From assembly GCA_013416395.1 (NCBI GenBank), contig JACCEP010000017.1, forward strand, positions 1 to 64,000: 64,000 nucleotides of DNA, in the 5' to 3' direction. The position numbers and the translations under genes were made by a program. Origin of the DNA: Alcaligenaceae bacterium. Its GTDB lineage: Bacteria; Pseudomonadota; Gammaproteobacteria; Burkholderiales; Burkholderiaceae_B. Below are positions 1-20,989 of the stretch, piece by piece. The notes under the pieces were generated by a model. The model was not told where the DNA came from. It saw only the letters and a list, made by a program, of their open reading frames with translations, and searched no databases. Positions within the stretch are counted from its first letter, which is position 1, and the number at the start of each line of letters is the position of its first letter.

Positions 1-65
1 TGATGTTCGGTGATTTGCTTTACCGCTTCGAGTTTGAATTCTTCCGTAAATCGGGCCGTGCTCAT
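1..65 (-). CDS. IS3-family transposase OrfA, N-terminus (runs off edge)
   Basis: Only the first 21 residues are inside the window: MSTARFTEEFKLEAVKQITE and one more. This is the usual opening of the OrfA helix-turn-helix protein of IS3-type elements, which binds the IS ends and is joined to OrfB by programmed frameshifting. The ATG is at 63-65 and the gene continues past position 1. Family membership rests on this short but characteristic N-terminus; the IS3 subgroup cannot be given. Confidence 0.75.
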   Translation of the reverse strand, partial: MSTARFTEEFKLEAVKQITEH

Positions 66-126
66 AATCATCTCCTCACTGAGTATTATGAGGCTAAAAA
101 CTGTCTAGCAAACCCTGGCCGATTCA
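1..126 (-). mobile_element. End of an IS3-family insertion sequence
   Basis: The window opens inside an insertion sequence whose orfA start reads leftwards off the edge. Positions 103-126, read on the minus strand, begin TGAATCGGCCAGGGTTTGCT and continue to a TAGACA box, which resembles the terminal inverted repeat of IS3-family elements. The other end lies outside the window, so the terminus cannot be confirmed by pairing. The IS end coincides with the stop codon of the neighbouring DUF2971 gene, so the insertion probably trimmed that gene. Confidence 0.7.
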
Positions 127-4792: not shown

Positions 4793-5106
4793 AAGAACGG
4801 CTACCTCGAGTTGCGCAACAAGATCGGTCGCTTTCTGTCTGTCGTCAGTTCAAGTCTGAACTAGGACGTCTGGACTACGCTTGGTGTCACAAGGGCGGCG
4901 TAATGAAGTCGCAAGAATTCCCCATTGAAATGGGGCCCCATTTGAGGACATCGCCAGTCTTTCAGTCTGGCAGAGCCTTCAAGCTCCCCAACCTAGTTGT
5001 GGCCCTTAAAGGCTCACACAGGACGCACATCAAGGATGTTCCCGAAAGCCGCATGAATACTAGCTTTTGGGAGAGTAAGCCCGGTGACAGTTTGTGGCAC
5101 GAATAG
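4789..5106 (+). CDS. Doubtful small ORF ending in a conserved repeated peptide
   Basis: The 105-codon frame starts 4 bp before the stop of the preceding gene (ATGA overlap). Its second half encodes SPVFQSGRAFKLPNLVVAL and, further on, ESRMNTSFWE and LWHE before the stop. The same peptide, with the same stop position, is encoded by the diverged copy at 43198-43372, and several of the differences are synonymous. That argues mildly for coding. The first 45 residues have no counterpart there. It could equally be a non-coding mobile-element end. No family recognised. Confidence 0.3.
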   Translation: MKERLPRVAQQDRSLSVCRQFKSELGRLDYAWCHKGGVMKSQEFPIEMGPHLRTSPVFQSGRAFKLPNLVVALKGSHRTHIKDVPESRMNTSFWESKPGDSLWHE

Positions 5107-5162
5107 TGCCACAGTTTTGCTGGCAGCCTCTCCACTGCTGCAAAGACTGTTCTACGGCTGTG
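4930..5162 (+). repeat. Direct repeat B, left copy
   Basis: About 175 bp (4930-5106), with weaker similarity continuing to about 5162 (GTTCTACGGCTGTGG), are repeated at 43198-43430 on the same strand. Shared runs include GACATCGCCAGTCTTTCAG and GGCTCACACAGGACGCACAT. Repeats A and B occur in the same order on both sides of the big insertion (A then B), at different spacing. A small hairpin GTGGCAC-GAATA-GTGCCAC sits at 5094-5112 in this copy. Confidence 0.7.
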
Positions 5163-5352
5163 GCAAATCATGTCGTAGACATCTGGACTAGTTTCAATCA
5201 GTTTCATACGGGGTACGACATAGGTACTGATTGTTTCTTACGGAATACGTTCGGTATGCAGGTGGTGTGCAAATCGATAACTTTAGAGATTCATGATGCG
5301 TACGTTATGGATGCATCTTGAGTCCTGATGGGGTGTGGCTAGCTCAGGCGCG

Positions 5353-5406
5353 AGCTAACAATTCATTCAAATCGCCAGTTGTTGGCGTTTTAACTCAAAA
5401 TTAGGT
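5353..5406 (+). repeat. attC-like integron recombination site
   Basis: The 54-bp site reads AGCTAAC (R''-like) followed by AATTCATTCAA, a central hairpin CGCCA-GTTGT-TGGCG, then TTAACTCAA (L'-like) and ATTAGGT (R'-like, expected GTTRRRY). CTAACAATTCATTCAA and TTAACTCAA are the same words found in the attC sites of aadA-type gene cassettes. The imperfect palindrome with a short unpaired centre is the expected architecture. The R' core has A instead of G at its first base. A cassette-style gene starts 10 bp downstream. No integrase gene is in the window. Confidence 0.7.
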
Positions 5407-5415
5407 TGCAAACGG

Positions 5416-5928
5416 ATGAATTTCATCAACGCAATTGCTGCAGAGGCTTTCCGGGCGATTACCGGTCGCCTCTTTACCGAAGCTCAGATCCGCCAAGTTG
5501 CGACTCATGCTGTGGGAAGATACTTGACCGATCTTCTGCCTGAGCCTGCAGATGATAGAGCGGCCCGTGAGCGAGCCGAAGAGGCGCGAAGCCATATTGA
5601 ACAGGCCAGTTCAATCATCTCGCAATTGCAATATGAACTCGGTTCGCAAACTAAGCAATTAGACAACGTTCTGGCAGAGATCGAAGAGAAGAAGCGGTTG
5701 GCTATGAAGTATGAAACGCTCGCAAAGACTGGACAGGAACAGTTCGCGGCATTTAAGTCCGAGATCGAAGGCGCTCTACGGCAAGAGCTAGCCAATCAGT
5801 CAGAGAAGGGTAAAACTGTACGTCGCCTCGCTTCTGGCTTTCTATGGCTCGTGACTTTAGTACTTGGTGCCGCACTGGGGGCCTATTTCAAGGAGTTACT
5901 CGCATGGCTTTACACATTTTTGGTCTAA
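5416..5928 (+). CDS. Cassette-like coiled-coil protein with C-terminal membrane anchor
   Basis: A 170-residue protein of unknown function. Residues about 50-135 are a strongly predicted coiled coil (EERAEEARSHIEQASS-type heptads through QSEKGKTVRRL), and residues 140-168 form a C-terminal hydrophobic segment (GFLWLVTLVLGAALGAYF, then LLAWLYTFLV). It is therefore probably a tail-anchored inner-membrane protein with a cytosolic coiled-coil stalk. The ATG lies 10 bp after an attC-like site, the normal position for the first ORF of a gene cassette. No second attC was found downstream. Confidence 0.5.
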   Translation: MNFINAIAAEAFRAITGRLFTEAQIRQVATHAVGRYLTDLLPEPADDRAARERAEEARSHIEQASSIISQLQYELGSQTKQLDNVLAEIEEKKRLAMKYETLAKTGQEQFAAFKSEIEGALRQELANQSEKGKTVRRLASGFLWLVTLVLGAALGAYFKELLAWLYTFLV

Positions 5929-6543
5929 GTATTCGTTACAGCCGACGGGCTCACGCCATTGCTGAATTCCAACGCTGAACGAGGGCTTCTGATTTTCACT
6001 GATGCCCGCTTCTGGCCGTAAACCATCATCCGCTAATCATGATGCTCTCCCCATGTGGGAGCGAGCCGAGAAGGGATGGGCTACTCGGCCTGAGATTGAT
6101 ATCCCGTACGCAAGTCTTGGCTGTACAGCCCACCGAGCGATCAACATGACCAAGGCTAATTCTCCTCCCGACTCCAATACGCGATCTGATAATTGAAGCG
6201 TGGTAGGTTTTGCTGTGCGAGGATGCGGAAATTCACCTTTATTTTTCCGGAGCTAGAGGCAATAGGCCAAGGCTAGGGGCCTGATCTGTCGACTGTAATG
6301 CATGATATGGTCTCCCGGACGTTTGAATGGGAAATATCCTGTGTCGTAAGGGCGACCAAGAACCGCACATCCGCTATTCGATAGATAGTCGGTCAAACTT
6401 TGCTATAGTGAATGTAAATAATATAGACGAAATAATTCTTGAAGTTACTCCGAGACGAATGAGGCCTAGCGCTAGCTGCACACCGGAGTGCACTAGCCTG
6501 TGTCTGTCGGCTCGTGGATAAGTCCAACCTGTAGCCATCTCAC
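5929..6543. other. Intergenic region, no convincing gene
   Basis: This 615-bp stretch holds only short frames without family features. CCCGCTTCTGGCCGTAAACC at 6004-6023 is one of the recurrent CTTCTGGCCG motifs of the left cargo region. The segment 6390-6450 is AT-rich (TATAGTGAATGTAAATAATA) and may carry the promoter for the gene at 6544. Confidence 0.4.
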
Positions 6544-7518
6544 ATGCAGATTCCGTACACAGCCACTAATTTCCCAACAGGATCGTCAACCCGCCTGATT
6601 GGCGACCAGACATTGACTTCAACGTGGACTGACATCGTTTGGTCCGCGATAACTGCAGGGAAACCTGGAGCCGCACACTTGTTGGCACACCGTTGGCATT
6701 CAATGGCAGACGTGGTCGTGCGCTCACACACGATATATGCCAATCTTCGCCAAGATGGGGCGGGAATTGGCCGCTCAACGCTCTACGACTCTCTTGATCC
6801 AACCGAAAAGGGAGCTACGTCTTATTTTCTGGGTATGGCGATGGCAAAGCTCTTCGCCGCAGAACTCTTTGGCACCCCTTGGCTATTCCATGTCTCGCAA
6901 GCAACCTCCGGCGGAGCAGGCATCGTCTTCAATCGAGGTTCTAAATCCCAGCCAGATCTAATTGGTCAGAGTTTGTCCGGCGATTGGATTGTCGTGGAAG
7001 CGAAGGGCCGAACTAATGGTTTGGACGGTAAGGCTCTGGAGAAAGCCAAGCGGCAGACAGAAATGATTCGAACAATCAACGGAAGTCTACCCACCCTCCG
7101 TGTCGCTCTTCAGGCTTACTTTGAAGATCGGTTACGAGTAAGGATTGACGATCCAACCGATGCCAAGCCGGAAGCTCTTGAGGTGGAGCTGGATCTAAAT
7201 GCCGCGTTGGCGAAGTATTACGCAGTGGCAACTGCTATCACTGCGAGGGATCCGACGATAGAGCGAGTGCGGGATCGAGAGTTTATGACACGTGTCGACA
7301 ATGACTCTGGCGTGACAATAGGACTGCAGTCCTCTGTCTGGGAGAGCGTGAAAGCTGGCAAGTTTCAGGATATTCGAGAGAACAGCGACCGTCTGGACGA
7401 GCGCATGACCGGCGCTGATGGGTCGGCGAACATCTATCCAGATGGTCTATTAGTAAGACTGGATGCTCGATGGTCGCCACAATTTATGAGTCGTGAGCCA
7501 GAGCTTAGAGATGGTTAG
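6544..7518 (+). CDS. Orphan protein with PD-(D/E)XK nuclease motif
   Basis: A 324-residue protein without a named family that I recognise. Near residues 138-155 it contains SQPDLIGQSLSGDWIVVEAK: PD, ten residues, then a hydrophobic strand with ExK, which is the active-site signature of PD-(D/E)XK nucleases. The N-terminal 130 residues are helical (TSYFLGMAMAKLFAAEL), and the C-terminal 150 residues carry no recognisable domain. Single-gene restriction-like or toxin effectors in defence-rich islands often look like this; a defence role is inference. The ATG at 6544 has only a weak ribosome site. It lies alone, between recurrent intergenic motifs and the end of the plasmid block. Confidence 0.5.
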   Translation: MQIPYTATNFPTGSSTRLIGDQTLTSTWTDIVWSAITAGKPGAAHLLAHRWHSMADVVVRSHTIYANLRQDGAGIGRSTLYDSLDPTEKGATSYFLGMAMAKLFAAELFGTPWLFHVSQATSGGAGIVFNRGSKSQPDLIGQSLSGDWIVVEAKGRTNGLDGKALEKAKRQTEMIRTINGSLPTLRVALQAYFEDRLRVRIDDPTDAKPEALEVELDLNAALAKYYAVATAITARDPTIERVRDREFMTRVDNDSGVTIGLQSSVWESVKAGKFQDIRENSDRLDERMTGADGSANIYPDGLLVRLDARWSPQFMSREPELRDG

Positions 7519-7563
7519 CGACCCGAGGTGGGTTCCCAGTAAGATCTTCCTATGACCGTTTCT

Positions 7564-7627
7564 GGCCGAAAGCCGCGGCTGCTAACTCAACTAAACCACC
7601 TCATAGTATCTATCAGATCAAATCTGA
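7564..7627 (+). repeat. Composite intergenic repeat, copy 2
   Basis: TCTGGCCGAAAGCCGC at 7561-7576 is followed by TCAGATCAAATCTGA at 7613-7627, mirroring the arrangement at 1730-1795 in the same orientation. It lies just downstream of the nuclease-like gene and just before the 3' end of the relaxase gene, so it marks the junction between the left cargo and the plasmid block. Confidence 0.5.
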
Positions 7628-7638
7628 CTCGGTCTAGC

Positions 7639-10563
7639 TTAGCTCCGCTCCATGTCAACATGCTGAAGCGTCGCCTCGAACCAGCTGGCTTCAAGCGTTG
7701 GTCCCTGCCGCCCAGGCGCTTGCAGGTCGTGTGCTAAACCCTTGTACGGAACCCTGGCAACTGAACTGGGCAGCCTGTGGGCGTCATCAGTAAAGACGAT
7801 CACGTCATGGCGCTCTCGCGAAATGCTCACGTAGTAGGTGTCCTGCGCTGTCGTCCTGGACGCGCTTTCCGCGTTGTAGAACACCCGGTCGCAGGTCAAT
7901 CCCTGGGCACTGTGCGCGGTCGTGGCGTAGGCATGGTCAAGATGCAGGGGTTGATCAGCCGGTAAGGTTACCGCTCGGCCATTGGCGGCGATGGTTATCT
8001 TCTCTTTGCTGACCTGCAGCACTTCGTAGCGCTCGCCATTGGCCAGATCAAGGTCAGCATTGTTGCGCGTCACGCGCACGACATCGCCGGGTGATATTTC
8101 AGCCTCATGCAGACGATAAACCGAAAGCGTGCTCATCATTTTTGGTATGACCTGGATGGCTTGGGCATTTTCACCGGAGTCGGTGTGCAGCGGTTCGACG
8201 GTAATTCGGTCGATCCGGTCGCTGCACTCGGTGACGCGATACAACTGGCCGCGTTTCATGCCGTTTTTATAGTCACGCTCTGGTTGAACGATATCGCCCA
8301 CCGTGTAGTACTTGGCGCAGCGGCGTTGCGCTCGCGTTGTGTCATGACGCGTGAGGAGTTTGACCGTACGGCCTTTGCCCTGCAGGCCACGATACTGATG
8401 CACCAGGGCATTGATGGCTTTTCGTGAGGCGTTGGTGCCCGTCACGATAAGCGTTTGGGCCTGATCGGTCCGCGACAATGCGACATACTCACGGGCAATG
8501 GCCTCATATCGCGCTGTGCCATCCCGGGTGCGCTTGCCTGTCTCAGACTCGGTAAACGTATCGGGTATTTCAACGACCTGGTCAATGAGCTCCAGGGATT
8601 CACGCGTTTTGCCGCTAGCGGCCAGTTCCACGGCGCGCTTGAGGCGTTCACTCTTCTGCCGCTGTATATCGCCCATGAGGGCAGTTTTCATACCATTCTC
8701 CTGCAACAAAGCAAAGGCGCGACCCGCTTCCACGGCTTTGGTCTGGGCGGTGTCGCCCAGCAGCACGATGCGTGCGCCGGTGGGTTTTAGTTGTGCGAGC
8801 AGGCGCTGCATTTCACGTACCGGGATAACGCCCGCCTCGTCGATGACGACAACCGTTTTCTCATTGATTTTGGCCTGCTGGCGGGCCGTGTCGGTTGCCT
8901 CCAGGCGTGAGGCCACGGTGTTTGCTTCAATCCCGTCACGACGCAGGTTCGCAACCTGCGTGCCATAGGGGGCAAGCGCGACCATGCGATAACCTTGCTC
9001 ACGCAACAATTCTTGTGTGCTCTGGAGCGCAAAGGACTTGCCCGTGCCTGCCAAACCCTGGATGCCCACGATCTGGTTTTGGCCTGCCAGCATGAGATTG
9101 ACGGCATCACGTTGGCCTGCCGTGAGCGTTGTGCCTGCCAATGCCTTTTGCAGAGCATGCGCCTCGATAATGGGTGCCATTGTTCCCCGGCCTTCGCACT
9201 CCATTGCAATGATCTGCTTTTCACGGTCTAGCGCTGTGCGGGTGGCATAAAGCCGTTCGGTTTTGCTGAGCCGCCCAACCTGGATCGCCTGATCGACCAT
9301 CGACCGGGCACTGGCCAGTGGCACGCCTTGTGCTTGCGCGAGTTCCTGTGCCCAGGCCCCGCGTGTGCGCGGTGCAATCTTCAGATCAGAATTGCTCTGG
9401 TAAGTGTCGGGGCGCACCACCAGCGCGTCCTCGCGAATGAGCCGTTGCAGCGCGGCTTCGATCTGTTCGGTAGAGACGACGCCTTGCGCGTGCAGCCCGG
9501 CGGTGGCGATGATTTCAGCATGTGGTATGACGGTTTCTCGTTCAGCCATGTGTTTGATGGCCCACAGGAGAGCGGCATCGGCAACACGCTGGCGGGCCTC
9601 GGCCTGTACGGGAGCCTTGTCCTTTGCCGTCAGACGCTGGGCACGCTCTTTCGCGGTGGCGAGCCCGTTTCCCAGGTCAAGGCCAACGTCTCGCGCTTGT
9701 TGTACCCAGTTCGCATGCAAATCCGCTCTGGATATCCCCGGTGCCTTGGCTTTGCGCGTCGCCAAGGTGGCGACCTGCCGCTGAGCATGACTGGCGGTTG
9801 CACGGTTTAGGCTTCGGTAGGAAAGCTGCTGCATGATCTGGGCCGTGCGCTTGCTAAAGTGCTCGATCTGATCGCGGCTGATATGCGCCAACTCGATGTG
9901 TTGCTTTTCAAAGCGGATTTCGTAGCCCAGGTCAGTCAGCTCACGGGCGAGCTCTGCCATGTAGACCGAATCCAGAAGCGGTCGCAGTTTTACGATCTGG
10001 TCGTTACTCAGCGTCACCCAGCTTCCATCGTCCAGTCTGGTCAGGTTCATGATGATGGCATGGGTATGCAATTGGGGGTCGGGAACCGCATCTGGGGTTT
10101 CACGCGCTGTTTCGTGCCGAAACTTGGCAATCGCCAGGTTCCCCGTGCGCTGCACATGCACCTTGCCCTTGATGGTCTTTCGGCCTTGGGCCAAGTGCGC
10201 TTCTGCGTAGGCCAACGCACGGGTGACTGCCTTGTCATGGGCAGCAATGATGCGCTCGTCGCCGCCGACCAACGCAGCCAGGGACACGCTTTTCGGGGCG
10301 GAGATCGTTAAGTCCAACGCCGAGCGGGCCTTGGCGTCTTTGCGAATACGTGCTGATGTCTTGACGCCTCGACCAAAATTGCCCTGCAGCATTGCTTGGA
10401 AGCGGCGGATATCGACTTGCCCAGAGGCCCCCAGCATTTGCGCGCCGCGTCCCTGCCAGAGCGCTGCGCTTCCATCACGGCTGTAGTAATCGTCGGCCTG
10501 ATCTTCGTAGTAGTGGGTGTTTTTCGCGGAATCACTGCGATACAGAATTTTCTTGGTGATCAT
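7639..10563 (-). CDS. trwC: MobF-family conjugative relaxase/helicase (TrwC/TraI-like)
   Basis: The 974-residue protein has the size and architecture of TrwC. The relaxase domain (about 1-300) has tyrosine pairs at 18-19 and 26-27, matching TrwC Tyr18 and Tyr26, and a histidine triad (His150; His166 and His168 in DPQLHTHAIIMN). The helicase half begins near residue 500 with Walker A GLAGTGKS, then VVIDEAG (motif II), and ends with motif VI-like HAYATTAHSAQGLTCDRVF. It nicks oriT, stays bound to the strand and unwinds it for transfer. ATG at 10563 has AAGGAGC upstream. It is the last gene of the minus-strand mobilisation cluster, 30 bp after the coupling protein. An 80-bp relic of the same gene type lies at 45849-45930. 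Confidence 0.95.
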   Translation of the reverse strand: MITKKILYRSDSAKNTHYYEDQADDYYSRDGSAALWQGRGAQMLGASGQVDIRRFQAMLQGNFGRGVKTSARIRKDAKARSALDLTISAPKSVSLAALVGGDERIIAAHDKAVTRALAYAEAHLAQGRKTIKGKVHVQRTGNLAIAKFRHETARETPDAVPDPQLHTHAIIMNLTRLDDGSWVTLSNDQIVKLRPLLDSVYMAELARELTDLGYEIRFEKQHIELAHISRDQIEHFSKRTAQIMQQLSYRSLNRATASHAQRQVATLATRKAKAPGISRADLHANWVQQARDVGLDLGNGLATAKERAQRLTAKDKAPVQAEARQRVADAALLWAIKHMAERETVIPHAEIIATAGLHAQGVVSTEQIEAALQRLIREDALVVRPDTYQSNSDLKIAPRTRGAWAQELAQAQGVPLASARSMVDQAIQVGRLSKTERLYATRTALDREKQIIAMECEGRGTMAPIIEAHALQKALAGTTLTAGQRDAVNLMLAGQNQIVGIQGLAGTGKSFALQSTQELLREQGYRMVALAPYGTQVANLRRDGIEANTVASRLEATDTARQQAKINEKTVVVIDEAGVIPVREMQRLLAQLKPTGARIVLLGDTAQTKAVEAGRAFALLQENGMKTALMGDIQRQKSERLKRAVELAASGKTRESLELIDQVVEIPDTFTESETGKRTRDGTARYEAIAREYVALSRTDQAQTLIVTGTNASRKAINALVHQYRGLQGKGRTVKLLTRHDTTRAQRRCAKYYTVGDIVQPERDYKNGMKRGQLYRVTECSDRIDRITVEPLHTDSGENAQAIQVIPKMMSTLSVYRLHEAEISPGDVVRVTRNNADLDLANGERYEVLQVSKEKITIAANGRAVTLPADQPLHLDHAYATTAHSAQGLTCDRVFYNAESASRTTAQDTYYVSISRERHDVIVFTDDAHRLPSSVARVPYKGLAHDLQAPGRQGPTLEASWFEATLQHVDMERS

Positions 10564-10593
10564 GGTTGCTCCTTTGGGGGCCAGGCGGGGTGC

Positions 10594-12174
10594 CTATGCC
10601 GCTTCTCGCCTGGGGCTGGGATCGATGCGCCGTAGCTGCCTTGATTCCATGAAGGGCTCTACGACCTGGGGAAAGTGGCGGTATTTCATCTGCACTTTGG
10701 CAATGGGGTAGTCGCCTGCGAAGGCGATGTAGCCCGCCATCTCGGGAAAGGCCTGGATTTCGCTGGGTGTCACCACGCGCTCGGTCTCGCGCCTGGATTG
10801 GTCTGATGTGTTGCGGGTGTCCACAGACCGGGAAACGCTGTACTCAAAGCGCTGCACCTCATGCTCACCCAGGCTTTTACTCATGTCCTCGGCGGTCTGG
10901 GGGTCCGTCTTGGAACCCCCGAGCACGGCCAGGTTACGAAAGCTCGCGCGGATGGTCTGCGCCATGGTGCGCCCGTAGATGTAGTCCAGCTGCGACGTGC
11001 TTTGCAGTCCGGCGACAATGCGTAGGCCATTCTTGCGACCCTTGGTAAGCCCTGCCTCCAGAGAGGGCAGGGCATCTAGGCTCGCCAGTTCGTCAATGAA
11101 CATCCACCAACGCCGGTCCCGATCCTCGGGCATGGACAGTACCGCCGTGATGAACACATCGGCCCAGGCCGACACAAGCGGCTTCATCGCCGGTGCCATG
11201 TCTTCACGCCAGTTTATGAACAGGCTCCCACCGTTGGGGTCGGTTAGCCAATCGCGGATGGAAAAACGTCCCGCCTTCATGCTGGTGTGTTCCGAGAGCT
11301 TGTTTGAGAGCACAAAGCGCGCAGAGGACAGCGCTTTGCTCGCCTCGGACGAGCCGACAAAAAGCGATTCGGCGAGTGTCCCAGCCAGAAATTGCTTCAA
11401 GGCCCCCGGATCTTCGATGGTGCACAGGCGAAACAGCTCCATGGTGCTGACGCCCTCAGGGTCTTGGCGGTAGAGCTTTTTGGCTGTTTCGCGTAGCAGC
11501 AGTCGACCAAAATCGTTCCACTCTTCAGCCGATTTGTCCTGGCTCATAGGCACCATGGAGTGGGCTAAGCGCTTCCAATCGTAGTCGGCACGGATTTCGT
11601 TGAAAAAACTCCAGCCCACGCTGCGCGTGTCGTACGGATTGAGTACGACATCGCCGGGCTTGTAGAACTTGCTCATCAGGTCGCCATTCGGGTCGATGAC
11701 GAACATGCGCTCGCCACGCTGGCGCACCGACTTTGCCATGGCGCGTAGCAGCACCGATTTGCCTGAACCGGTGGCTCCGCCAATCATCAGGTGCAGATTC
11801 TCCACCTTGATCGGCATGGGTACGGTGGCCACCTCGATCTGCGCGGTGGGTTCATGGCATAGCTTGCGAAGCTTTTGCACCGGCACGACGCGCGTGCCAC
11901 GGATAAAGCGCTTGTAGCCCGCCCCATCAAAGCCTTCGGTTTTATAGCGTCGGCCAATGTAGACGATGGCGGCCAAAGACAGCAGCAGGCTTAATGCCGG
12001 CCAAAGGTACAGCGGTGGATACACCAGGGTGGCCTGGATCATGTGTAGCCAGATGCGCCAGTCCCAGTGCCTGACCCAGATGCCGCTGGCGAGCGACGCC
12101 ACGCCAAGCCAGGTCAGCACGGGAAAAAGGACGATGAACAGGACGGCCAGACGCCGTTTGGTGATGGGAGACAT
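10594..12174 (-). CDS. virD4: Type IV coupling protein (TrwB/VirD4/TraD family)
   Basis: A 526-residue inner-membrane ATPase that links the relaxosome to the secretion channel. Two N-terminal transmembrane helices (about 9-30 and 50-73) precede the RecA-like domain with Walker A GGATGSGKSVLL near residue 135 and Walker B RRWWMFIDELASL near 360. An arginine-finger region and TrwB-type segments such as GLQSTSQLDYIYG and LGGSKTDPQTAEDMS follow. Its length matches TrwB (507). The ATG at 12174 follows GGAGAAGAAC. It follows the stbC-like gene by 15 bp and precedes the relaxase, the same order as in R388-like plasmids. A 375-bp relic of a second copy is at 43428-43802. Confidence 0.93.
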   Translation of the reverse strand: MSPITKRRLAVLFIVLFPVLTWLGVASLASGIWVRHWDWRIWLHMIQATLVYPPLYLWPALSLLLSLAAIVYIGRRYKTEGFDGAGYKRFIRGTRVVPVQKLRKLCHEPTAQIEVATVPMPIKVENLHLMIGGATGSGKSVLLRAMAKSVRQRGERMFVIDPNGDLMSKFYKPGDVVLNPYDTRSVGWSFFNEIRADYDWKRLAHSMVPMSQDKSAEEWNDFGRLLLRETAKKLYRQDPEGVSTMELFRLCTIEDPGALKQFLAGTLAESLFVGSSEASKALSSARFVLSNKLSEHTSMKAGRFSIRDWLTDPNGGSLFINWREDMAPAMKPLVSAWADVFITAVLSMPEDRDRRWWMFIDELASLDALPSLEAGLTKGRKNGLRIVAGLQSTSQLDYIYGRTMAQTIRASFRNLAVLGGSKTDPQTAEDMSKSLGEHEVQRFEYSVSRSVDTRNTSDQSRRETERVVTPSEIQAFPEMAGYIAFAGDYPIAKVQMKYRHFPQVVEPFMESRQLRRIDPSPRREAA

Positions 12175-12189
12175 GTTCTTCTCCGAGGG

Positions 12190-12621
12190 TCAGGTTAGGA
12201 GGTACACCAGCAGTGCGGCACCTGCGCCACTTGCCCCGCCTACAGCCAGGGCGATGAGCGCCATCTTGCGCGCCGAGACCAAGGCGAGCTGTGCATAACG
12301 CGCGGTACTGAGCGAGAGCTGATCCAGTTGCACGCGGGTGGTCTCCAGGGCGGCGCGTATCTGGTCGAGCGCCTGGTTGTTCAACGCAGCGCCTGTTTGC
12401 TGCATGGTGTCGCGCAGGGTTTGCTCCATGTGCGGTGGCAAGTCGTGTAGCTGCCCGGCCGTGGCTGCCAAGGCGTCCACGGCGGATGCCAGCGAGGCGG
12501 TGGTTTGACCGATGCGCTCGTTGATCTCCTCAATGCGCCCGATCAGGTACGCAACTTCGCCCAGCACCTCCTGGTACACCACATCGAGCTTGGTGCGGGC
12601 GAGCTTTTGATCCTCACCCAT
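12190..12621 (-). CDS. stbC: StbC-like small membrane protein of the stability operon
   Basis: A 143-residue protein starting MGEDQKLARTKLDVVYQEV. It is helical, with coiled-coil stretches (IEEINERIGQTTASLASAV) and a C-terminal transmembrane helix (ALIALAVGGASGAGAALLVY). In R388 the third gene of stbABC encodes a small protein of unknown role; the identification here rests on position after stbB and on size, not on a signature. The start ATG at 12619-12621 overlaps the stbB stop by 8 bp, arguing for translational coupling. The upstream in-frame extension is not used. Confidence 0.55.
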   Translation of the reverse strand: MGEDQKLARTKLDVVYQEVLGEVAYLIGRIEEINERIGQTTASLASAVDALAATAGQLHDLPPHMEQTLRDTMQQTGAALNNQALDQIRAALETTRVQLDQLSLSTARYAQLALVSARKMALIALAVGGASGAGAALLVYLLT

Positions 12622-13363
12622 GGCCCCGTTCCTGCTCGGTTGCGACAATGGGCGTGTCAGCAAAGAGCGCAGCAAAGGCACGATCGAGCTGGCGGTTCAC
12701 CGGTCGGGCCAGGGCGCGTAGCGCATGCATGTTGGACAGATGGGCGATTTGCTTGTGGTTGCTGCGGTCGGCCTCGCGCAGCATTTGCCGGTAGTCGGTC
12801 TGGTCGGCCAGTACCTGCGCGATGGTGGTGCGTTGATCGGCCAGCAGTTCAAACACCTCGTTTTCAAAAATGGCCGCCTGTGCATTGGCGATGCAGTCGC
12901 CCGATTTTCTGGTGTAGGTCAGGATGGCCAGGAATTCGTCTTCGACGCTGACGTCGACGCGGTTAAACAGCAGCCGGATGCGTTCAGGCGACACACCCAG
13001 ACCCGTCAATGCGCCCACGGTTTTGATGGTTTCACGCTGCGCTTTGCCCGATGGCACCACCGGCAGCACGAACTGATCGACCTCGATGTGCGACTCTTCG
13101 TAGTTCAGCATGTGGACCAGGAACTCTTCGATGTTGGAGGCGCCTACGTCGATGATGGCGTCGTCGAGCATCAGCAGCTCGCGAAAGAGTTGCCCGAATT
13201 GCTCGCCGCGCAACTGGTCCACGTCCAGGCCCAGATCGCCGGCCGTCTCGTTGGTTGACTCGATGGCGAAGATTGGCGCGTTGTGCATGCGCGGAGCAAG
13301 CAGATGGGAGGCCATGATGGTTTTACCCACCGAGCCGGAATAGTTCAAAACAGCAATTTTCAT
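12614..13363 (-). CDS. stbB: StbB-like ParA/MinD-type ATPase for plasmid stability
   Basis: The 249-residue protein begins MKIAVLNYSGSVGKTIMASH, a deviant Walker A (GSVGKT) at the very N-terminus as in R388 StbB. LMLDDAIIDVGAS near 93-105 supplies the Walker B/switch aspartates, and FVLPVVPSGKAQRETI follows. In R388, StbB is an ATPase needed for conjugation and counteracts StbA in positioning plasmid DNA. The ATG at 13361-13363 follows AACGAC weakly, but the N-terminal motif fixes the start; a longer in-frame extension to 13696 is spurious because it overlaps stbA. The gene is 29 bp after stbA and overlaps stbC. Confidence 0.85.
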   Translation of the reverse strand: MKIAVLNYSGSVGKTIMASHLLAPRMHNAPIFAIESTNETAGDLGLDVDQLRGEQFGQLFRELLMLDDAIIDVGASNIEEFLVHMLNYEESHIEVDQFVLPVVPSGKAQRETIKTVGALTGLGVSPERIRLLFNRVDVSVEDEFLAILTYTRKSGDCIANAQAAIFENEVFELLADQRTTIAQVLADQTDYRQMLREADRSNHKQIAHLSNMHALRALARPVNRQLDRAFAALFADTPIVATEQERGHG

Positions 13364-13392
13364 GAGGTCGTTTTCTTCGTTCAAAAAGGTGA

Positions 13393-13854
13393 TTAATCGG
13401 ATTCGTGGGCGCTGCGTTTGGCGGCGCGGCGCAGCGATAAGCCCTCTTCGCGTAGCGCGTCCAGGTCGATCGTTTGGTCCCGGATCTTGGCAAGGTCCTC
13501 GGGGGTGTTGATGCGGACAGGCCGTTCGGATGTCTGGTTCTGCGTCGATGGGGTCGTGGGGTGTTCCGTCGCAGGCCTTTTGCGTGTTGTGGGAGCTGGT
13601 GTCCCATCGCCTTCGTGCAATCCCGTCTGCGCCAGGACTGCGCGGGCGCGCCGCATCGCCACCTTGAACGTGTTGAGGTTGACGGTGACACCGCATGCGT
13701 TCAGATCCTCCACAATCGCCCGGTAAGGCGAGCCGCTTGCCAAGCGCGCCTCGATGATGGGCAGTACCGCTCGGATGTGTGCGGCTACGCTGGCTCGCGT
13801 GTCCACGTTTGCCAACACGGTGCGAAACTCATCGATGTACTGCTCGGGCGTCAT
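13393..13854 (-). CDS. stbA: StbA-like DNA-binding plasmid segregation protein
   Basis: A 153-residue basic protein. Residues 1-70 look like a helix-turn-helix DNA-binding domain (SPYRAIVEDLNACGVTVNLN then TFKVAMRRAR). The middle is low-complexity (TPAPTTRKRPATEHPTTPS), and the C-terminus is helical and basic. That bipartite build and the position first before stbB match StbA of R388, which binds 9-bp direct repeats spaced 2 bp apart upstream of its operon and distributes plasmid copies. An array with exactly 11-bp period lies at 14468-14500. The ATG at 13854 overlaps the preceding gene by ATGA. Confidence 0.75.
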   Translation of the reverse strand: MTPEQYIDEFRTVLANVDTRASVAAHIRAVLPIIEARLASGSPYRAIVEDLNACGVTVNLNTFKVAMRRARAVLAQTGLHEGDGTPAPTTRKRPATEHPTTPSTQNQTSERPVRINTPEDLAKIRDQTIDLDALREEGLSLRRAAKRSAHESD

Positions 13855-14078
13855 GCGGTCGCCTCCGAGAGCATGGCGGCCAGCCTGGGAACGGCTGCGG
13901 CCCAGTCAGGGCCGATGTAATCCAAGGCGCTGGCGATTGTGTGGCCCATTTGGGCTAGCCACTCGGGATGGTTCAAGACAAGCGCTGCCAGCAGGATTTC
14001 GCCTGGCGAGAGCGCGCTGAGATGGCCGTGTTCTGCCTCGCGCAGGCATTGCACGACGGCTTCGGTGTCTGGGTTCAT
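13851..14078 (-). CDS. Small conserved plasmid protein preceding stbA
   Basis: A 75-residue acidic helical protein (MNPDTEAVVQCLREAEHGHL at the start, ALDYIGPDWAAAVPRLAAML near the end). I do not recognise a family. The ATG at 14076-14078 has a strong CAGGAGAAC ribosome site, which decides the start over a longer upstream reading. It overlaps stbA by 4 bp (ATGA), so it is the promoter-proximal gene of the stability and mobilisation operon. Its position next to the oriT/stbDR region suggests a regulatory or relaxosome-associated role, but nothing in the sequence proves it. Confidence 0.6.
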   Translation of the reverse strand: MNPDTEAVVQCLREAEHGHLSALSPGEILLAALVLNHPEWLAQMGHTIASALDYIGPDWAAAVPRLAAMLSEATA

Positions 14079-14099
14079 GTCGTTCTCCTGTCGAGTAAG

Positions 14100-14430
14100 C
14101 ACGCACGAATGCACCGCACCCTGATCGATGCCGACCGGGCGCGCGGCGGTCGCCGTGCGAGGGGGGAGCCAGGGCCGCGTGTGCGGCCATGGGGGGCTTT
14201 GCCCACGGGCAAGGGTCGAGGCCGCAGCCCGCCTGCCAGGCAAGGCGGGCTGGACAGGGAACCCGGCAAGGGTTCCGCGGCCAGGGGCCTATCCATCCCC
14301 GCCCGAAGGGTGGGGACTGAAGTTTCAGTGCATGGTCAACGTCGTTCACATGCGGGTGTAAAAACTGACATCGTGCATGCGAGGAGAGTGAGATTGATCA
14401 ACCTGACGATTGTTACTGAATCGTAACTTT
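14100..14430. other. Probable oriT / operon leader region with strong hairpins
   Basis: This GC-rich gap lies between the stability/mobilisation operon and the replication origin, where R388-type plasmids keep oriT. It holds inverted repeats: AGCCCGCCT (14226-14234) with AGGCGGGCT (14243-14251), and GGAACCC (from about 14259) with GGGTTCC, separated by 4 bp, plus GCCGCGTGTGCGGC near 14171. No nic sequence could be matched by eye to a known MobF nic site, so the exact nick position is unassigned. Confidence 0.4.
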
Positions 14431-14450
14431 TTTGATTCTGCAGACAAAGT

Positions 14451-14459
14451 TATCCACAG
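14451..14459 (+). promoter_or_regulatory. DnaA box
   Basis: TTATCCACA is the perfect DnaA consensus; a second perfect copy stands at 14641-14649, between the fourth and fifth iterons. Paired DnaA boxes beside iterons are the normal build of an iteron-controlled plasmid origin. Confidence 0.75.
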
Positions 14460-14467
14460 CCCTATAT

Positions 14468-14500
14468 GGTAGAAATAAGGTAGAAGAAAGGTAGAGGCTG
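14468..14500 (+). repeat. Three 11-bp-period direct repeats (possible StbA sites)
   Basis: GGTAGA begins at 14468, 14479 and 14490, giving an exact 11-bp period: GGTAGAAATAA, GGTAGAAGAAA, GGTAGAGGCTG. The period equals one DNA turn and matches the 9+2 bp layout known for StbA sites of R388, although the repeat sequence itself is different. The array sits between DnaA box 1 and the iterons. Confidence 0.6.
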
Positions 14501-14548
14501 AAAGGATGGCTGGAAAGCCTTTATTCATGCGGGTTTTGAAATTGTAAC

Positions 14549-14697
14549 CGCGATGCTATTACGATAAAGCGCGATGCTATTACGATAAATCGCGATGCTA
14601 TTACGATGGGGCGCGATGCTATTACGATGCTTGGACCCAGTTATCCACAGGCTATTTTTGGTCAAAAAGTGATCAAAAAGCGCGATGCTATTACGAT
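14549..14697 (+). repeat. oriV: Replication origin: five iterons CGCGATGCTATTACGAT
   Basis: The 17-bp word CGCGATGCTATTACGAT occurs without mismatch at 14549, 14570, 14591 and 14612 (period 21 bp, two helical turns) and again at 14681. Between the fourth and fifth copies lie a DnaA box (14641) and an AT-rich segment (GGCTATTTTTGGTCAAAAAG), a likely melting region. The gene for the TrfA-like initiator ends 25 bp to the right. Iterons bind the Rep protein and set copy number, so this is the vegetative origin of the integrated plasmid. Whether it still fires in the chromosome is unknown. Confidence 0.93.
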
Positions 14698-14721
14698 GGT
14701 CAGCCGATTTTTTGTACCCGA

Positions 14722-15636
14722 TTATTGGGGCTCACTGACCCGAAACCAGACCGCTTGTTGTACCCCGCGTGTACTCGTTTCGATACGTGGAGAGCCGATC
14801 AATCCGAGCTCGGCCAGCTCGCCCAATGCACGCTCCAAGGCGGGTCGAAAATCGCGTAAGCGACCGGCATAGTGGGCGCGTTCCTTGAGGATTTGCAGGC
14901 TGTAGCGCTGCTCTGGGTCTTTGGATGTGCCAATAAGGCGCTGCAAGCTCTTGGAGAGCTCATAACGCATGCTCAGGCGCTTGCTCCAGTCAATGAGGGT
15001 GAATTCGCGGTTGCTAAAAATCTGGGCCCAACGCGGGTCAACATACAGCCGATAGCTCTGGTTCTTATCGTCGTAATCAAAGCCGCCCAGCATAGGCAGA
15101 ACCCGACTGGCAGGGTGGTGACCGTAGCTGTATTTGAGCGTGCCATTGGCTCGCGTGGCTTCAATGGAGAGTGTGAACCGGGCCAGATCCTTCATGCCGT
15201 CATGCAACCACTGATAGCTGGCACCGCTGGTGTTGCGCCCCAGGCTGCGCAGGAAATCGGCGCGGTTGATGACGGGCTGCTCGCCCGAGGCGCACGTCAT
15301 TTGCAAGTACATGGCCTGCATCCAGATATCGGCGTGATCCTCTGCCAGCTGCTTGCCAGAACCCTTGATAAGTACCCGATCACTGCGCAGAAATACCGCG
15401 TCGTCATGCGTTACGCGATGGCCTCTGCGAACGGGTGCAAAGATGCTGCTGCGGGCAATGTAGTTGGGCATGGCGCGCATATTCTCACCAATGCCGGGCA
15501 GGTATACGCGTTTGAATTTAGGCCGCGCCAGAAACAGCGTATCGTCGTTTTGGGCAGCTCTTTGTTGTGCTGACTCAGACAGCCTGGCCAGGGTATTGAC
15601 CAGTGCGATGCGGGGTGTTTGGGCTTGTGAAATCAT
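14722..15636 (-). CDS. trfA: TrfA-like plasmid replication initiator
   Basis: A 304-residue protein with the winged-helix build of TrfA. Its N-terminal part contains YLPGIGENMRAMPNYIARSS and IFAPVRRGHRV, equivalent to the RAMPN-ARSALF segment of IncP TrfA; PVINRADFLRSLGRNTSG is the first winged-helix; and MRYELSKSLQRLIGTSKDPE leads into the second. It binds the iterons directly downstream of its own stop codon and opens the origin. The ATG at 15634-15636 is preferred; TTG and ATG starts up to 22 codons upstream are possible but poorly conserved in character. The gene is on the same strand as the VirB cluster. Confidence 0.88.
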   Translation of the reverse strand: MISQAQTPRIALVNTLARLSESAQQRAAQNDDTLFLARPKFKRVYLPGIGENMRAMPNYIARSSIFAPVRRGHRVTHDDAVFLRSDRVLIKGSGKQLAEDHADIWMQAMYLQMTCASGEQPVINRADFLRSLGRNTSGASYQWLHDGMKDLARFTLSIEATRANGTLKYSYGHHPASRVLPMLGGFDYDDKNQSYRLYVDPRWAQIFSNREFTLIDWSKRLSMRYELSKSLQRLIGTSKDPEQRYSLQILKERAHYAGRLRDFRPALERALGELAELGLIGSPRIETSTRGVQQAVWFRVSEPQ

Positions 15637-15778
15637 GGTGGGTATCGTCCGTGCATAGCAATACGAAGCCATGCACGCATTGGTCGCATCGCCCCGTATC
15701 AATTTCAGAATCAGGCACGCCGGGCGCTAAGCGCATGGGGCGGGTACAGGGTGAAAGGAATGCGAGGCGCGGTGCGTA

Positions 15779-16045
15779 TCAGCCTAAGACGTGCTCGCGG
15801 CTGGCCGCTTTCAGATTGCGCCGAGGTTTTAGGCCCGGTAAACCGTGCTGCTCGAAAAACTCGCGCCGAGCGCGCAACCATTGCCTATAGCAATGGCCCA
15901 TGCGGAACTGCCAGGGGTAGCTCGCATCGATGGCAGCAGCAATCTGTTCGGGAGTTTGGCGCTCGGCGCGACACTCGTCATAGACTTTGTTTATGATTCT
16001 GTAGGCGATGACAGCAAAGCCCACGCCTTCAAAGGGTTCAGCCAT
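15779..16045 (-). CDS. Small conserved plasmid protein between virB11 and trfA
   Basis: An 88-residue basic protein (MAEPFEGVGFAVIAYRIINK at the start, then CRAERQTPEQIAAAIDASYP, and an arginine-rich end). It contains no membrane segment. The start follows an AAGGAGACCC ribosome site. It lies 48 bp after virB11 and before trfA, so it is probably co-transcribed with the transfer genes. The family is not recognised; proteins of this type in the same position may regulate or modulate replication, but there is no direct evidence. Confidence 0.6.
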   Translation of the reverse strand: MAEPFEGVGFAVIAYRIINKVYDECRAERQTPEQIAAAIDASYPWQFRMGHCYRQWLRARREFFEQHGLPGLKPRRNLKAASREHVLG

Positions 16046-16093
16046 TGGGTCTCCTTGTTAGGTTTGGATTGGGCACAAAGGCGGCGGGCGTGG

Positions 16094-17116
16094 TCACCCT
16101 GTCGGCAGCCGACTGCGCGGCTGGTAGTGGATTTCACGCAACGTGAACCGCTCAACGTGCAGCACAATATCGATGGTGTTGTGAAGAAACGCGCGGATGG
16201 CTTCCAGGTCGAGCTGGCCGCCAGTCGGCGACTGCTTGATGAGCAGCGCCAGCCGATCATAGGTATCCAACGCGCTGTTGGCATGCGTTGTGGTGATTGA
16301 TCCTGGGTGGCCGGTGTTTAGCGCCGTCAGGTATTCCCACGCTTCGCCGCCACGCAGCTCCGCCAGAAAAATCCGATCGGGCGAGAGCCGCATGCAGGCG
16401 GCCACGCATTGCGTGGGGTCAACGCGTCCTTGCGCGATGCCGTACATCATGGGTACGAGGTTGCGATGATTGGGTAAGTGCAGTTCATGCACATCCTCAA
16501 TGGTGATCAAGCGCTCATGAAGCGGCACCCGTTCGATGAGCGAGCGGGCAAACGTTGTTTTGCCAGAGCCGGTGGCCCCACCAATGACGATGTTGCGTCG
16601 GGCCTGCACGGCCTCATGCAGAAATTGAGAGATTTCCCCGGCTTCTTTGAGTCCCAGCAGCTTGCGGTCGGTCGGCGTCAAGCCGTCTGCATCAAGGAGC
16701 GCCGTGCTGTCTTGAGCCATCTCAAACGCACTTTCTGCGTCCAGCTCTTCCAGTGTTTTGACGGTACTGGCGTGCTTGCGGATGTTGATGGCCAGCGTCC
16801 CGTCCAGGCAGGCGGGTGGTTGCACGATCTGGCCTCGTTCACCGCCTGGCAAAATCACTGACATGATGGGGGCTAAGCCCTGGCCGTTATACACAGCCAG
16901 GGCATTGGCTAACGCCTGTAAGTGTTCGAGCGTCAATGTCTCGCACGTATGCGGGTGCCATGCCCCACGCTCGCGGGTGAACAGGCTTCCCGGGCGCACG
17001 ATAGCGATTTCGCTTACCTGTGGGTTGGCCAGGTGCGCGGCCAGTGGCCGCAGAAACGTTCTGACCGATATCCCCCTATCGAAGGGAATAGCGTTCTGGG
17101 GTGGGTTGCAGGTCAT
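16094..17116 (-). CDS. virB11: VirB11-type secretion ATPase
   Basis: A 340-residue cytoplasmic hexameric ATPase of the VirB11/TrwD family. The N-terminal domain (SVRTFLRPLAAHLANPQVSE) is followed by Walker A GGATGSGKTTFARSL near residue 184, an Asp box ITIEDVHELHLP, Walker B-like PDRIFLAELRGGEAWEY, and the His box TGHPGSITTTHANSA. All family motifs are intact. It switches the machine between pilus building and DNA transfer by contacting VirB4. The ATG at 17114-17116 lies inside the end of virB10 (41-bp overlap), which suggests translational coupling; longer upstream readings would lie wholly in virB10. Confidence 0.95.
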   Translation of the reverse strand: MTCNPPQNAIPFDRGISVRTFLRPLAAHLANPQVSEIAIVRPGSLFTRERGAWHPHTCETLTLEHLQALANALAVYNGQGLAPIMSVILPGGERGQIVQPPACLDGTLAINIRKHASTVKTLEELDAESAFEMAQDSTALLDADGLTPTDRKLLGLKEAGEISQFLHEAVQARRNIVIGGATGSGKTTFARSLIERVPLHERLITIEDVHELHLPNHRNLVPMMYGIAQGRVDPTQCVAACMRLSPDRIFLAELRGGEAWEYLTALNTGHPGSITTTHANSALDTYDRLALLIKQSPTGGQLDLEAIRAFLHNTIDIVLHVERFTLREIHYQPRSRLPTG

Positions 17117-18215
17117 AGACTTTACTGAAATCCAGATCACGGGCGACCATGATGCCGACACGCTCGCCCTGGTTTTTGTAAAGGGTGGGAGGAATATCCA
17201 GAGAATGCTCAAGGATTTTGGCGATCACCTCCTGGCTGCCTTCGCGGGTGTTATCAAACCGGATGTTGTTGTCCCCCCGGTTGCCCTGGTTGGAGGCCCA
17301 GTTGCCCAGGTCTCCAACGAGACTAAGCAAAATGGCATTGCCAAAGCGATCCCAGAAGTGGTGATCGAGCGCACCATCGACTCCCGGTTCGCCCAAGGGG
17401 CCGGTGCCGGGCGAGCCGATGTTTAGAATCACGCCGGTGGGTGTCTCTAGTCGGTTCCAGGTGACAAAGGCGCGCGGTTGGCCCTGGACAATGCCGCCGC
17501 TCTGGTACCCCGTGAACTTGGTGCCCGCGTCAATGAGGACAACCTTGCCATTAGCACTCATCACATCGTGGGTGGCAAAGCAGGTGAGCATGCCAGCCTG
17601 GGCGGTCACAAGGCGGGTTTGCATCACGCAATCGATCATCGTGCCCTGGGTAATGAGCATGTTCCGGTTGCCCAAATGGCCCGCTGTCGAAGGTGCTAGC
17701 TCCAGCGGGCGCAATTTGTCGGCCAGTGGACCGGCATCGCCGCCTGTGTCGGATTGCTGAGTGGGTGCCTGGTCCGCACCACTTTGGGCTGCCGAGTCGC
17801 TGCGCAGTCGGCTGCCTAAACGTCGGGCAGCGACTTCGTCAAGAAAAGGGGAGGCCGAGAGTGGAGCACTCCCCCCAACGATGACAGGCATTTGTGCGGG
17901 CGCTTCTTGAACGGGGGTAGGTGCTATCGCCTGCTCTGGTATAGGTTCAATCTTGGGCAGACGCAGCGCGTTGTAGATGCCGCTGGTGGTTGCTTCGGGG
18001 TTGCCCGCCACCTCTTCAGAAGAAGAGGGCCCCCACGCGAACCAGAGCATCAGCGCGACAATCACCACGGCAAAGAGCATGACAAGCCACAGAAAGGCAC
18101 GCGCGCCGCGTGGCAAGGGGCGGCGGGTGTCGCCTAGGTCGGCAGGACCCCGGTCATCCAGGCCCAGCGTCCTATCCAGTTCGGGGCGTGGGTCGTTCAT
18201 TGTTTCAGTCGTCAT
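17076..18215 (-). CDS. virB10: VirB10-type channel protein
   Basis: A 379-residue protein with one N-terminal membrane helix (residues about 40-62, FLWLVMLFAVVIVALMLWFA), a proline-rich linker (PIPEQAIAPTPVQEAPAQMP) and the C-terminal TrbI/VirB10 domain (ITQGTMIDCVMQTRLV, then TGVILNIGSPGTGPLGEPGV). VirB10 spans both membranes and forms the outer-membrane pore with VirB7 and VirB9. The ATG at 18215 overlaps the virB9 stop by 4 bp. Its 3' end overlaps virB11. The length is typical of MPF-T VirB10 (about 380-400). Confidence 0.94.
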   Translation of the reverse strand: MTTETMNDPRPELDRTLGLDDRGPADLGDTRRPLPRGARAFLWLVMLFAVVIVALMLWFAWGPSSSEEVAGNPEATTSGIYNALRLPKIEPIPEQAIAPTPVQEAPAQMPVIVGGSAPLSASPFLDEVAARRLGSRLRSDSAAQSGADQAPTQQSDTGGDAGPLADKLRPLELAPSTAGHLGNRNMLITQGTMIDCVMQTRLVTAQAGMLTCFATHDVMSANGKVVLIDAGTKFTGYQSGGIVQGQPRAFVTWNRLETPTGVILNIGSPGTGPLGEPGVDGALDHHFWDRFGNAILLSLVGDLGNWASNQGNRGDNNIRFDNTREGSQEVIAKILEHSLDIPPTLYKNQGERVGIMVARDLDFSKVYDLQPTPERYSLR

Positions 18216-19096
18216 TTCTTGCCCTCCTGGGTAACCGCTTGTGCGGCGGGTACTGTCTCTGGCGGTCGCGGCGGCATCGGCAAGCTCTGGGGTTCAGCCC
18301 CTTGCACCACACGCTGTATTTGGGGCGAGGCGGTGCCGGTGTGGGGTTTTGTTGGGGTCTTACCGAAGGCTTCGTTGTGGATGGCCACGACCTGATGGCC
18401 TAGACGAAGATGCCAGCGGCTGGCTGTGCGGTGCAGCACCATCGTGCGGTGGTCGGCCATATGCCCGTTGGTGATGACTTCCTGGCCATCGGGTGTGACG
18501 CGGTAGACGGCGGGGATTTCAGCGTTTGAGGCGAATTGCAGCCAGGTCTGATGCCCGTCATCCCAGGCATGAACGGGAGCAATCGCCAGATCCCCGCTTT
18601 TTGTATAGGCCTGCCAGTTAACGGGTGTGCCGACCTTAGCGAAGGCCGTTTGCACCAGTGCCTCGCGAGCAGCTTGTCGAGTCTGTAGCAGCAGGCTGTC
18701 CGGATAGCGGATGACGAGCTTATACAAAGCCCGAGCGGTGCGATCCCGGTGGTAGCTCACGCGAAAGGTGTAATTGCGTTTGTTGGTGATGACAATCAGG
18801 TTGCTATCGGCATCGTTGGCAATGGGTTTAAAAAACAGGTTATTGGCGTGATGCGTGAAGTCGTACGCCTGACTGTCGCCAAAGACATGAAATTTGTACT
18901 CTTCACCGTCTTCGAGCACGATCAGGGAGGCGACGCCAATGACGGCATCTAACTGGATGACGTTGGCGGGGTCATAGTCGACATAGCGCACACGATGGTC
19001 GGCGCGTGAGTTTTTGGGGACATCTAACGCCATAGCCGGGGCTGCGAGCGCGCAAGCCATAGCCACCGCCAATGCCCCTTGGGTAAATGGGTTCAT
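18212..19096 (-). CDS. virB9: VirB9-type outer-membrane core component
   Basis: A 294-residue protein with a signal peptide (residues 1-23, ending APAMA) and the VirB9/TrbG/CagX domain: RVRYVDYDPANVIQLDAVIG near 33-52, then FKPIANDADSNLIVITNKRN and a C-terminal segment NTWLQFA-type with ATIPAVYRV-like strands (seen as FASNAEIPAVYRVTPDGQ). It binds VirB7 and the C-terminal part of VirB10 in the core complex. The ATG at 19096 follows AAGGAACACACC. It overlaps virB10 by ATGA. Confidence 0.94.
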   Translation of the reverse strand: MNPFTQGALAVAMACALAAPAMALDVPKNSRADHRVRYVDYDPANVIQLDAVIGVASLIVLEDGEEYKFHVFGDSQAYDFTHHANNLFFKPIANDADSNLIVITNKRNYTFRVSYHRDRTARALYKLVIRYPDSLLLQTRQAAREALVQTAFAKVGTPVNWQAYTKSGDLAIAPVHAWDDGHQTWLQFASNAEIPAVYRVTPDGQEVITNGHMADHRTMVLHRTASRWHLRLGHQVVAIHNEAFGKTPTKPHTGTASPQIQRVVQGAEPQSLPMPPRPPETVPAAQAVTQEGKK

Positions 19097-19126
19097 GGTG
19101 TGTTCCTTCGTTGCGATAGGCAGTGT

Positions 19127-19813: not shown

Positions 19814-19816
19814 GGG

Positions 19817-19951
19817 TCAGGTTCCTTGAAGTGGGGCGGTTGCATTGACCGGTACGCGCGGCGTATCGGCCGGAATAGGGGGCTCAGGCGGATTGAATGC
19901 GCAGCCGCTCAGCAGCGCTGCCACCCACAGGATGGGGAGAAGGGTTCTCAT
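19817..19951 (-). CDS. virB7: VirB7-type small lipoprotein
   Basis: A 44-residue lipoprotein starting MRTLLPILWVAALLSGCAFN. The signal peptide ends in the lipobox LLSGC, and the mature part is proline-rich (PPEPPIPADTPRVPV), as in TrwH and VirB7. It anchors the VirB9-VirB10 ring to the outer membrane. The position between virB6 and virB8 is diagnostic for this small, poorly conserved protein. A longer in-frame start is possible, but the ATG at 19949-19951 directly precedes the signal peptide. Confidence 0.85.
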   Translation of the reverse strand: MRTLLPILWVAALLSGCAFNPPEPPIPADTPRVPVNATAPLQGT

Positions 19952-20024
19952 AGAAAAAAGGCTCCTGGCCCACCGGGCGCAGGTGCACCGGGCGGGCAAT
20001 GTGACGTTTCAGAAAGAGAGAGGT

Positions 20025-20978: not shown

Positions 20979-20989
20979 AGTGACCTCGC

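Follow-up and report, generated by a model that had tools for sequence, protein, structure and literature searches.

The conjugative element and its cargo slot

The analysed stretch of 64,000 nucleotides (hereafter the window) is contig C8 sequence from a 5.08-Mb genome in 45 contigs, with completeness given as 99.99. A MobF (TrwC-type) relaxase gene of a conjugative element lies on the minus strand (7639-10563), and its product is ~47% identical to its best plasmid matches. Between the end of this gene and a flank at 4911-5343 (plus strand) lies a variable cargo slot (5344-7631). The slot contains two genes on the plus strand. The product of the first (5416-5928) is, as judged from its ORF, structure prediction and selection, a coiled-coil protein of 170 aa whose C-terminus forms a hydrophobic helix. 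The second is a 324-aa gene (6544-7518), in which PD-(D/E)xK-like residues were noted by eye only. A comparison of the DNA of this region with plasmids gave no match.

A sister element is present at the end of contig C4 of the same genome, and shares 92.4% identity with the window over positions 7632-21727 (14.1 kb), together with further blocks. The identity ends seven bases past the relaxase stop codon and resumes at window 5343-4911, where the BLAST alignment shows 80% identity; this shared flank ends nine bases before the first attC-like site described below. The slots themselves are non-homologous, with 2,288 bp in the window versus 1,271 bp in C4, and no BLAST match between them. The C4 slot contains a 173-aa gene with weak HEPN_AbiU2 similarity (19 bits, cut-off 26.8), an attC site of 46.8 bits and a 179-aa gene. 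The cassettes of the window and C4 elements point in opposite directions relative to the relaxase gene.

Several other repeats were observed in the window. A third copy of part of the slot flank (43197-43427 versus 4931-5161, 81% identity) is joined to a fragment at 43421-43809, itself a duplicate of 10814-11204 within the coupling-protein gene, and further duplicated pieces are found at 43808-44104 and 46093-46433. Positions 31650-31724 match a group II intron domain (Rfam RF00029, 40.8 bits, cut-off 40). A 125-bp perfect inverted repeat joins window positions 2-126 with the other end of contig C8, and probably reflects an assembly break at a repeat.

Single-sequence AlphaFold2 prediction of the 170-aa protein gave a helical structure (mean pLDDT 73.5) with a long helix spanning residues 47-169, and the C-terminal hydrophobic stretch has a 19-residue mean of 1.98 from residue 138. 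The tail-anchored coiled-coil product proposed in a preliminary description of this locus is reasonable in view of this predicted long helix and hydrophobic stretch. No convincing family match was obtained in Pfam or PADLOC. The matches that did appear have the look of coiled-coil background and were set aside, the best defence-family match having an E value of 0.00072 (15.5 bits).

attC-like sites on both sides of the gene

The first site (5353-5406, plus strand) spans 54 bp, with a left box AGCTAAC at 5353-5359 and a right box ATTAGGT at 5400-5406. The preliminary description had reported a 54-bp attC-like site with words of the aadA type, a central hairpin and a small gene about 10 bp downstream, and each of these was located in the sequence: CTAACAATTCATTCAA at 5355-5370, TTAACTCAA at 5390-5398, the hairpin CGCCA-GTTGT-TGGCG at 5373-5387, and nine bases between the right box and the ATG at 5416. 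Site 1 carries the identical 15-nt left arm TAACAATTCATTCAA and the right arm TTAACTCA of attC sites of the aadA or Xanthomonadales type. It differs from them in the length of its inter-arm centre (19 nt, versus 24 nt in 260 of the 268 database matches listed), in a right core that reads ATT where the canonical core is GTT, and in the weakness of its complete fold; the left core AAC is intact. Site 1 is very likely the descendant of an attC site, and its membership in the Xanthomonadales type is our inference. The Xanthomonadales typing reportedly goes back to an earlier separate study. According to a figure legend in PMC9892861, some of the attC sites in class 1 integron fragments are of this type. 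Directly 5' of site 1, the stretch 5340-5352 resembles by eye the right arm of another attC site (GCTCAGGCG), and might be the trace of a lost cassette.

The second site (5923-5980, plus strand), which the preliminary description had missed, has a left box GTCTAAG at 5923-5929 and a right box GCTGAAC at 5974-5980. Both of its cores are lost (left AAG for the canonical AAC, right GCT for the canonical GTT), and the stop codon of the 170-aa gene (5926-5928) falls inside its left box. The boxes of a functional attC follow RYYYAAC on the left and GTTRRRY on the right, from which both AGCTAAC/ATTAGGT of site 1 and GTCTAAG/GCTGAAC of site 2 depart; both sites are read as decayed, not intact.

Under integron rules, the sequence and the two sites place the boundaries of the putative cassette unit at 5401-5974 (plus strand). 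The 574 bp between the two former crossover points correspond to one gene and its own attC, preceded by a 15-nt leader. This is the anatomy of a cassette, with a single gene, a short leader, a stop codon within its own attC, and the same orientation throughout. A single cassette inserted at a secondary site has an attC only 3' of its gene. Since attC remnants lie on both sides of the 170-aa gene, at least two cassettes would have been involved. No third attC was supported by our covariance models R1 and R2 between 5980 and 7600, none was found 3' of the 324-aa gene, and no ORF of an upstream cassette was recognized before site 1.

To score the sites by their arms, a profile was built from 81 attC sites, comprising R1 matches of at least 30 bits in integron loci and the 23 sites of R1. 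All lie near integron integrases, none comes from the window, and they were chosen without the arm pattern of the preliminary description. Position 5353 scored 22.4 and position 5923 scored 21.9, and the next place in the window on either strand scored 16.0. In control loci, none of 231,332 positions reached 21.8 (best 20.2), where the 27 loci were taken as attC-free and six of them (L003-L007 and L313) had been scanned with R2. Only 1 of 60 dinucleotide-shuffled windows reached 21.8. In an initial null, 40 of 584,842 positions scored at least as high as 5923; it contained loci around integron integrases and was therefore discarded. Both outliers lie where a cassette would have them, at either edge of one gene and on the strand expected. 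A cruder identity count gave 29 for 5923, and 27 out of 39 for 5353, which tied with two other places in the window; six shuffles had maxima of 26-27, so that 5353 is at noise level by this measure.

Covariance models were derived from stretches beside integron integrases, of which 17 were taken from the family and 20 from the order sample. R1 was built from 23 attC sites, one of them beside a partial integrase below the cut-off (L056, 253.5 bits). It returned 100 matches at E ≤ 1 in 15 integron loci, with a maximum of 71.5 bits and a single strand per locus. The best R1 match in the whole window (both strands, filters off) was site 2 at 5923-5980 on the plus strand (15.1 bits, E 0.097). Site 1 was absent from the 15 window matches up to E 10, and came third in a 3.5-kb search (5353-5406, 6.8 bits). 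The second model, R2, draws on 150 of 239 R1 matches, located in 26 of the 119 loci picked by the arm pattern of the preliminary description. Its top match in the window was 5353-5406 (21.1 bits, E 0.0039), followed by 5923-5993 (12.5 bits, E 0.88). R2 favours 5353 because its loci were picked by that very arm; we see no such bias toward 5923. Intact lone attC sites scored 57-88 bits with R2, versus 21.1 and 12.5 bits for the two window sites, and neither window site was listed in the genome-wide runs of R1 and R2 (R2 at E up to 0.001). Each site is marginal alone in the covariance models. The covariance check suggested in the preliminary description thus had a divided outcome for 5353, which is low in the unbiased R1 but high in the arm profile and first in the biased R2.

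Folding of the bottom strand of site 1 with DNA parameters gave -6.2 kcal/mol (z -1.82), with 9 of 200 shuffles as good and only the centre paired. Site 2 folded no better than shuffles (-7.2 kcal/mol, z -0.62, 51 of 200 as good), and an intact aadA-type control folded fully (-18.8 kcal/mol, z -4.69, 0 of 200). With RNA parameters and longer flanks, in a run without a control, the outer boxes of site 1 paired. BLAST of the site against plasmid and own DNA returned nothing useful.

The pattern TAACAATTCATTCAA N8-38 TTAAYTCA was found in at least 119 stretches of the genome contigs. A second reading of 119 listed loci gave 268 matches to the arm pattern in 116 of them; 235 have a GTTRR right box, and the remaining 33 are attC-like by eye. 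Many of the loci among the matches listed belong to Luteimonas, Pseudoxanthomonas, Xanthomonas and Lysobacter, with up to 13 matches per 8 kb. In viral contigs the pattern gave 40 matches, distributed over 38 of 38 loci, 28 of them with the box. In seven loci (L136, L145, L149, L191, L209, L218 and L241), the attC is broken at the same point after TTAATTCAG and continues with CAACTGTCTT. This shared break may point to an element or a truncation that targets attC, for which IS elements of the IS1111-attC type are presumably candidates.

Relatives of the gene and attC sites across the family

Among 268 genomes of the family, including its own, the 170-aa gene has a sole close relative, in genome G056 (74% identity, E 8.7e-73). 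This relative (contig C16, 3764-4285) lies in the opposite orientation and adjoins phage endolysin and spanin genes, so its site is probably the edge of a prophage. R2 found no attC at the relative, its best match in the stretch (9.8 bits) lying elsewhere. G096, G132 and G204 gave weak matches (E 2.2e-4 to 0.0057), which had the same look of coiled-coil background and were not retained. The relative adjoins a 415-aa gene (L007, 4409-5656) with a weak match to the phage family phrog_30399 (E 0.0012); this gene is a possible partner.

No relatives were found in 398 other genomes of the order sample, nor in plasmids, phages, genome contigs and viral contigs, the contig scans being limited to the pattern. 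The same gene as a cassette in integrons elsewhere, which the preliminary description had suggested looking for, was accordingly not encountered, the one close relative lying beside phage lysis genes without an attC. The missing cassette relatives are weak evidence. Comparison of the two genes gave dN 0.18 with saturated dS (pS 0.75) and a bootstrap pN/pS of 0.15-0.27. This sequence comparison indicates that the 170-aa gene is under purifying selection and encodes a real protein.

The genome carrying the window yielded no integron integrase above the cut-off, the best TIGR02249 match being 76.6 bits versus a cut-off of 265; the earlier remark that none lies nearby thus extends to the whole genome. 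Matches above the cut-off occur in 16 of 268 family genomes and 144 of 399 genomes of the order sample. R1 gave no match at E 10 in the window's own genome, with 150 of 2874 candidates scored. This is no evidence of absence, because R2 later found two attC sites there at E up to 0.001, one in C4 (46.8 bits) and one in C44 (42.7 bits). Both are near contig ends (~1.3 kb and ~0.2 kb, respectively), where the view stops.

With R2, lone attC sites also appeared in two of the four genus mates: G075 has one (88 bits) and G074 has two, of 60 and 57 bits. G073 and G076 gave no match at E up to 0.001. Across the family, 35 of 200 genomes searched with R2 were attC-positive. By comparison of the lists, 27 of the 35 have no integrase above the cut-off, and 8 are among the 16 that do. 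In this family it is therefore ordinary for a genome to carry attC sites although no integrase was found in it.

We considered whether cassettes might be selected for loss of the crossover core, using 56 family sites and counting deviations from the consensus; some rows contain indel shifts, which inflate the counts. Among the 15 sites from genomes with an integrase above the cut-off, deviations were seen at 3 of 90 core positions and at 64 of 420 conserved positions outside the core; among the 41 sites from the remaining genomes, the figures were 41 of 246 and 288 of 1148, respectively. Such core locking was rejected, since cores vary more where no integrase was found, yet not beyond other conserved positions. 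The difference between 3/90 and 41/246 is as expected if nothing keeps the cores, and relaxed constraint is favoured.

One lone aadA-type attC in genus mate G074 (contig C55; L116, 198-1560) directly follows a Pycsar-type pair, a PycTM/2TM effector (155.6 bits) and a PycC cyclase (307.8 bits), recognized by Pfam and PADLOC models. The sequence suggests that the pair is a defence cassette of two genes lying outside any integron, and no integrase above the cut-off was found in G074. Putative membrane and coiled-coil genes, recognized by eye, are each associated with one aadA-type attC in G074 (contig C13; L119, 1499-2328) and in contig C44 of the window's own genome (L312, 2526-3647); Pfam at E 0.01 gave no match for them.

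Origin and meaning of the probable decayed cassette

We consider it highly probable that the 170-aa gene is a former integron cassette (5401-5974), that the attC in front of it belonged to a neighbour, and that both sites, carried on a conjugative element, have since decayed. The case for a cassette rests on the sister element, the arm profile, and the pairing and placement of the two sites. Two cassettes or a short array of them, bearing attC sites of the aadA or Xanthomonadales type, would have landed in the slot between the relaxase gene and the shared flank. An integron integrase may have brought them there in trans, or they may derive from an ancestral integron since lost, and insertion at a secondary site or homologous exchange with an integron-bearing plasmid are also candidate routes. 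Once the integrase was gone, the sites would have decayed under relaxed constraint. The cassette is probably immobile now and would travel with the element, its gene being kept as a protein.

The preliminary description had instead proposed one stray cassette at a secondary site. Its cassette anatomy, a very likely attC descent of the site and the failure to find an integrase in the genome hold, and a single (attG-like) insertion by an integrase in trans would suit a genome without an integrase above the cut-off, in which, as in its genus, cassettes with a single attC exist. Insertion at a plasmid secondary site is also documented for aadB in RSF1010, through a reference in PMC10127599. The remnants on both sides of the gene nevertheless speak against it, as one insertion leaves a downstream attC only, and we regard this reading as unlikely. 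Still less likely is chance, by which site 1 would be a hairpin like that of an intrinsic terminator with lucky arms, and the gene would have come by another route, for example phage. The hairpin is indeed followed by TTTT in the manner of a terminator (two such in 4800-7600, shuffle mean 2.5), the relative adjoins phage lysis genes without attC, and 5353 is weak in R1 and at noise level in the identity count. However, no control position among 231,332 scores as high as either site, and neither does the best place in 59 of the 60 shuffled windows; the sites stand in the expected places and on the expected strand, and the sister element carries an attC in the same slot.

It is also conceivable that the sites are divergent yet working, and the cassette movable by an integrase in trans. 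Site 1 retains an intact left core, its outer boxes pair with RNA parameters, and the available text of PMC10127599 describes the middle base of the triplet as rather free. GTT is nevertheless missing from both right boxes and AAC from site 2, and folding with DNA parameters is poor, which leaves this idea scarcely credible. The suggestion that the site is a source of new cargo genes accordingly gives way to the look of a fossil, with non-canonical cores in both sites.

Among known systems, the locus resembles a CALIN (the IntegronFinder term), defined by at least two close attC sites and no integron integrase. The window has two attC-derived sites on the same strand, 516 bases apart, in a genome without an integrase above the cut-off. 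It is unlike a typical CALIN in that its sites are decayed and each marginal in covariance models, and the likeness is judged by our own models R1 and R2. Clusters of attC sites without an integrase are well known from the available parts of PMC9024848 and PMC12444791, the latter including one on a conjugative plasmid. The locus shares with aadB in RSF1010, a single cassette at a plasmid secondary site, the position of a cassette outside an integron on a mobile element, but differs in having attC on both sides, decayed sites and an unfamiliar gene. It is thus a decayed member of the known CALIN kind, largely ordinary, and its sister locus is informative. Anti-phage genes also occur as cargo of integron cassettes, as mentioned in the available text of PMC12444791 and seen in the lone Pycsar cassette of genus mate G074. 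The locus resembles these in attC type, genus and membrane or coiled-coil cargo, but the 170-aa gene lacks a convincing defence-family match; an anti-phage role of this cargo is a guess.

Both of the two compared elements carry attC-bearing, non-homologous slot cargo in opposite orientation, which suggests independent insertions. A more tentative proposal, which we think rather doubtful, is that the relaxase-side slot is a recurrent landing place for cassettes, in which single-stranded conjugative DNA would fold, host integrases would insert cassettes in trans beside the transfer region, and decay would fix them in integrase-free recipients. If true, the element family would be an integrase-free carrier of cassettes, with some of the cargo perhaps anti-phage. 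The sister element offers a natural comparison, one cargo slot with two fillings. Standard attC finders may well miss such decayed sites, and the integron-derived share of plasmid cargo could therefore be underestimated. The locus shows how a cassette may outlive its integron, on a conjugative carrier, with dying sites, as ordinary cargo.
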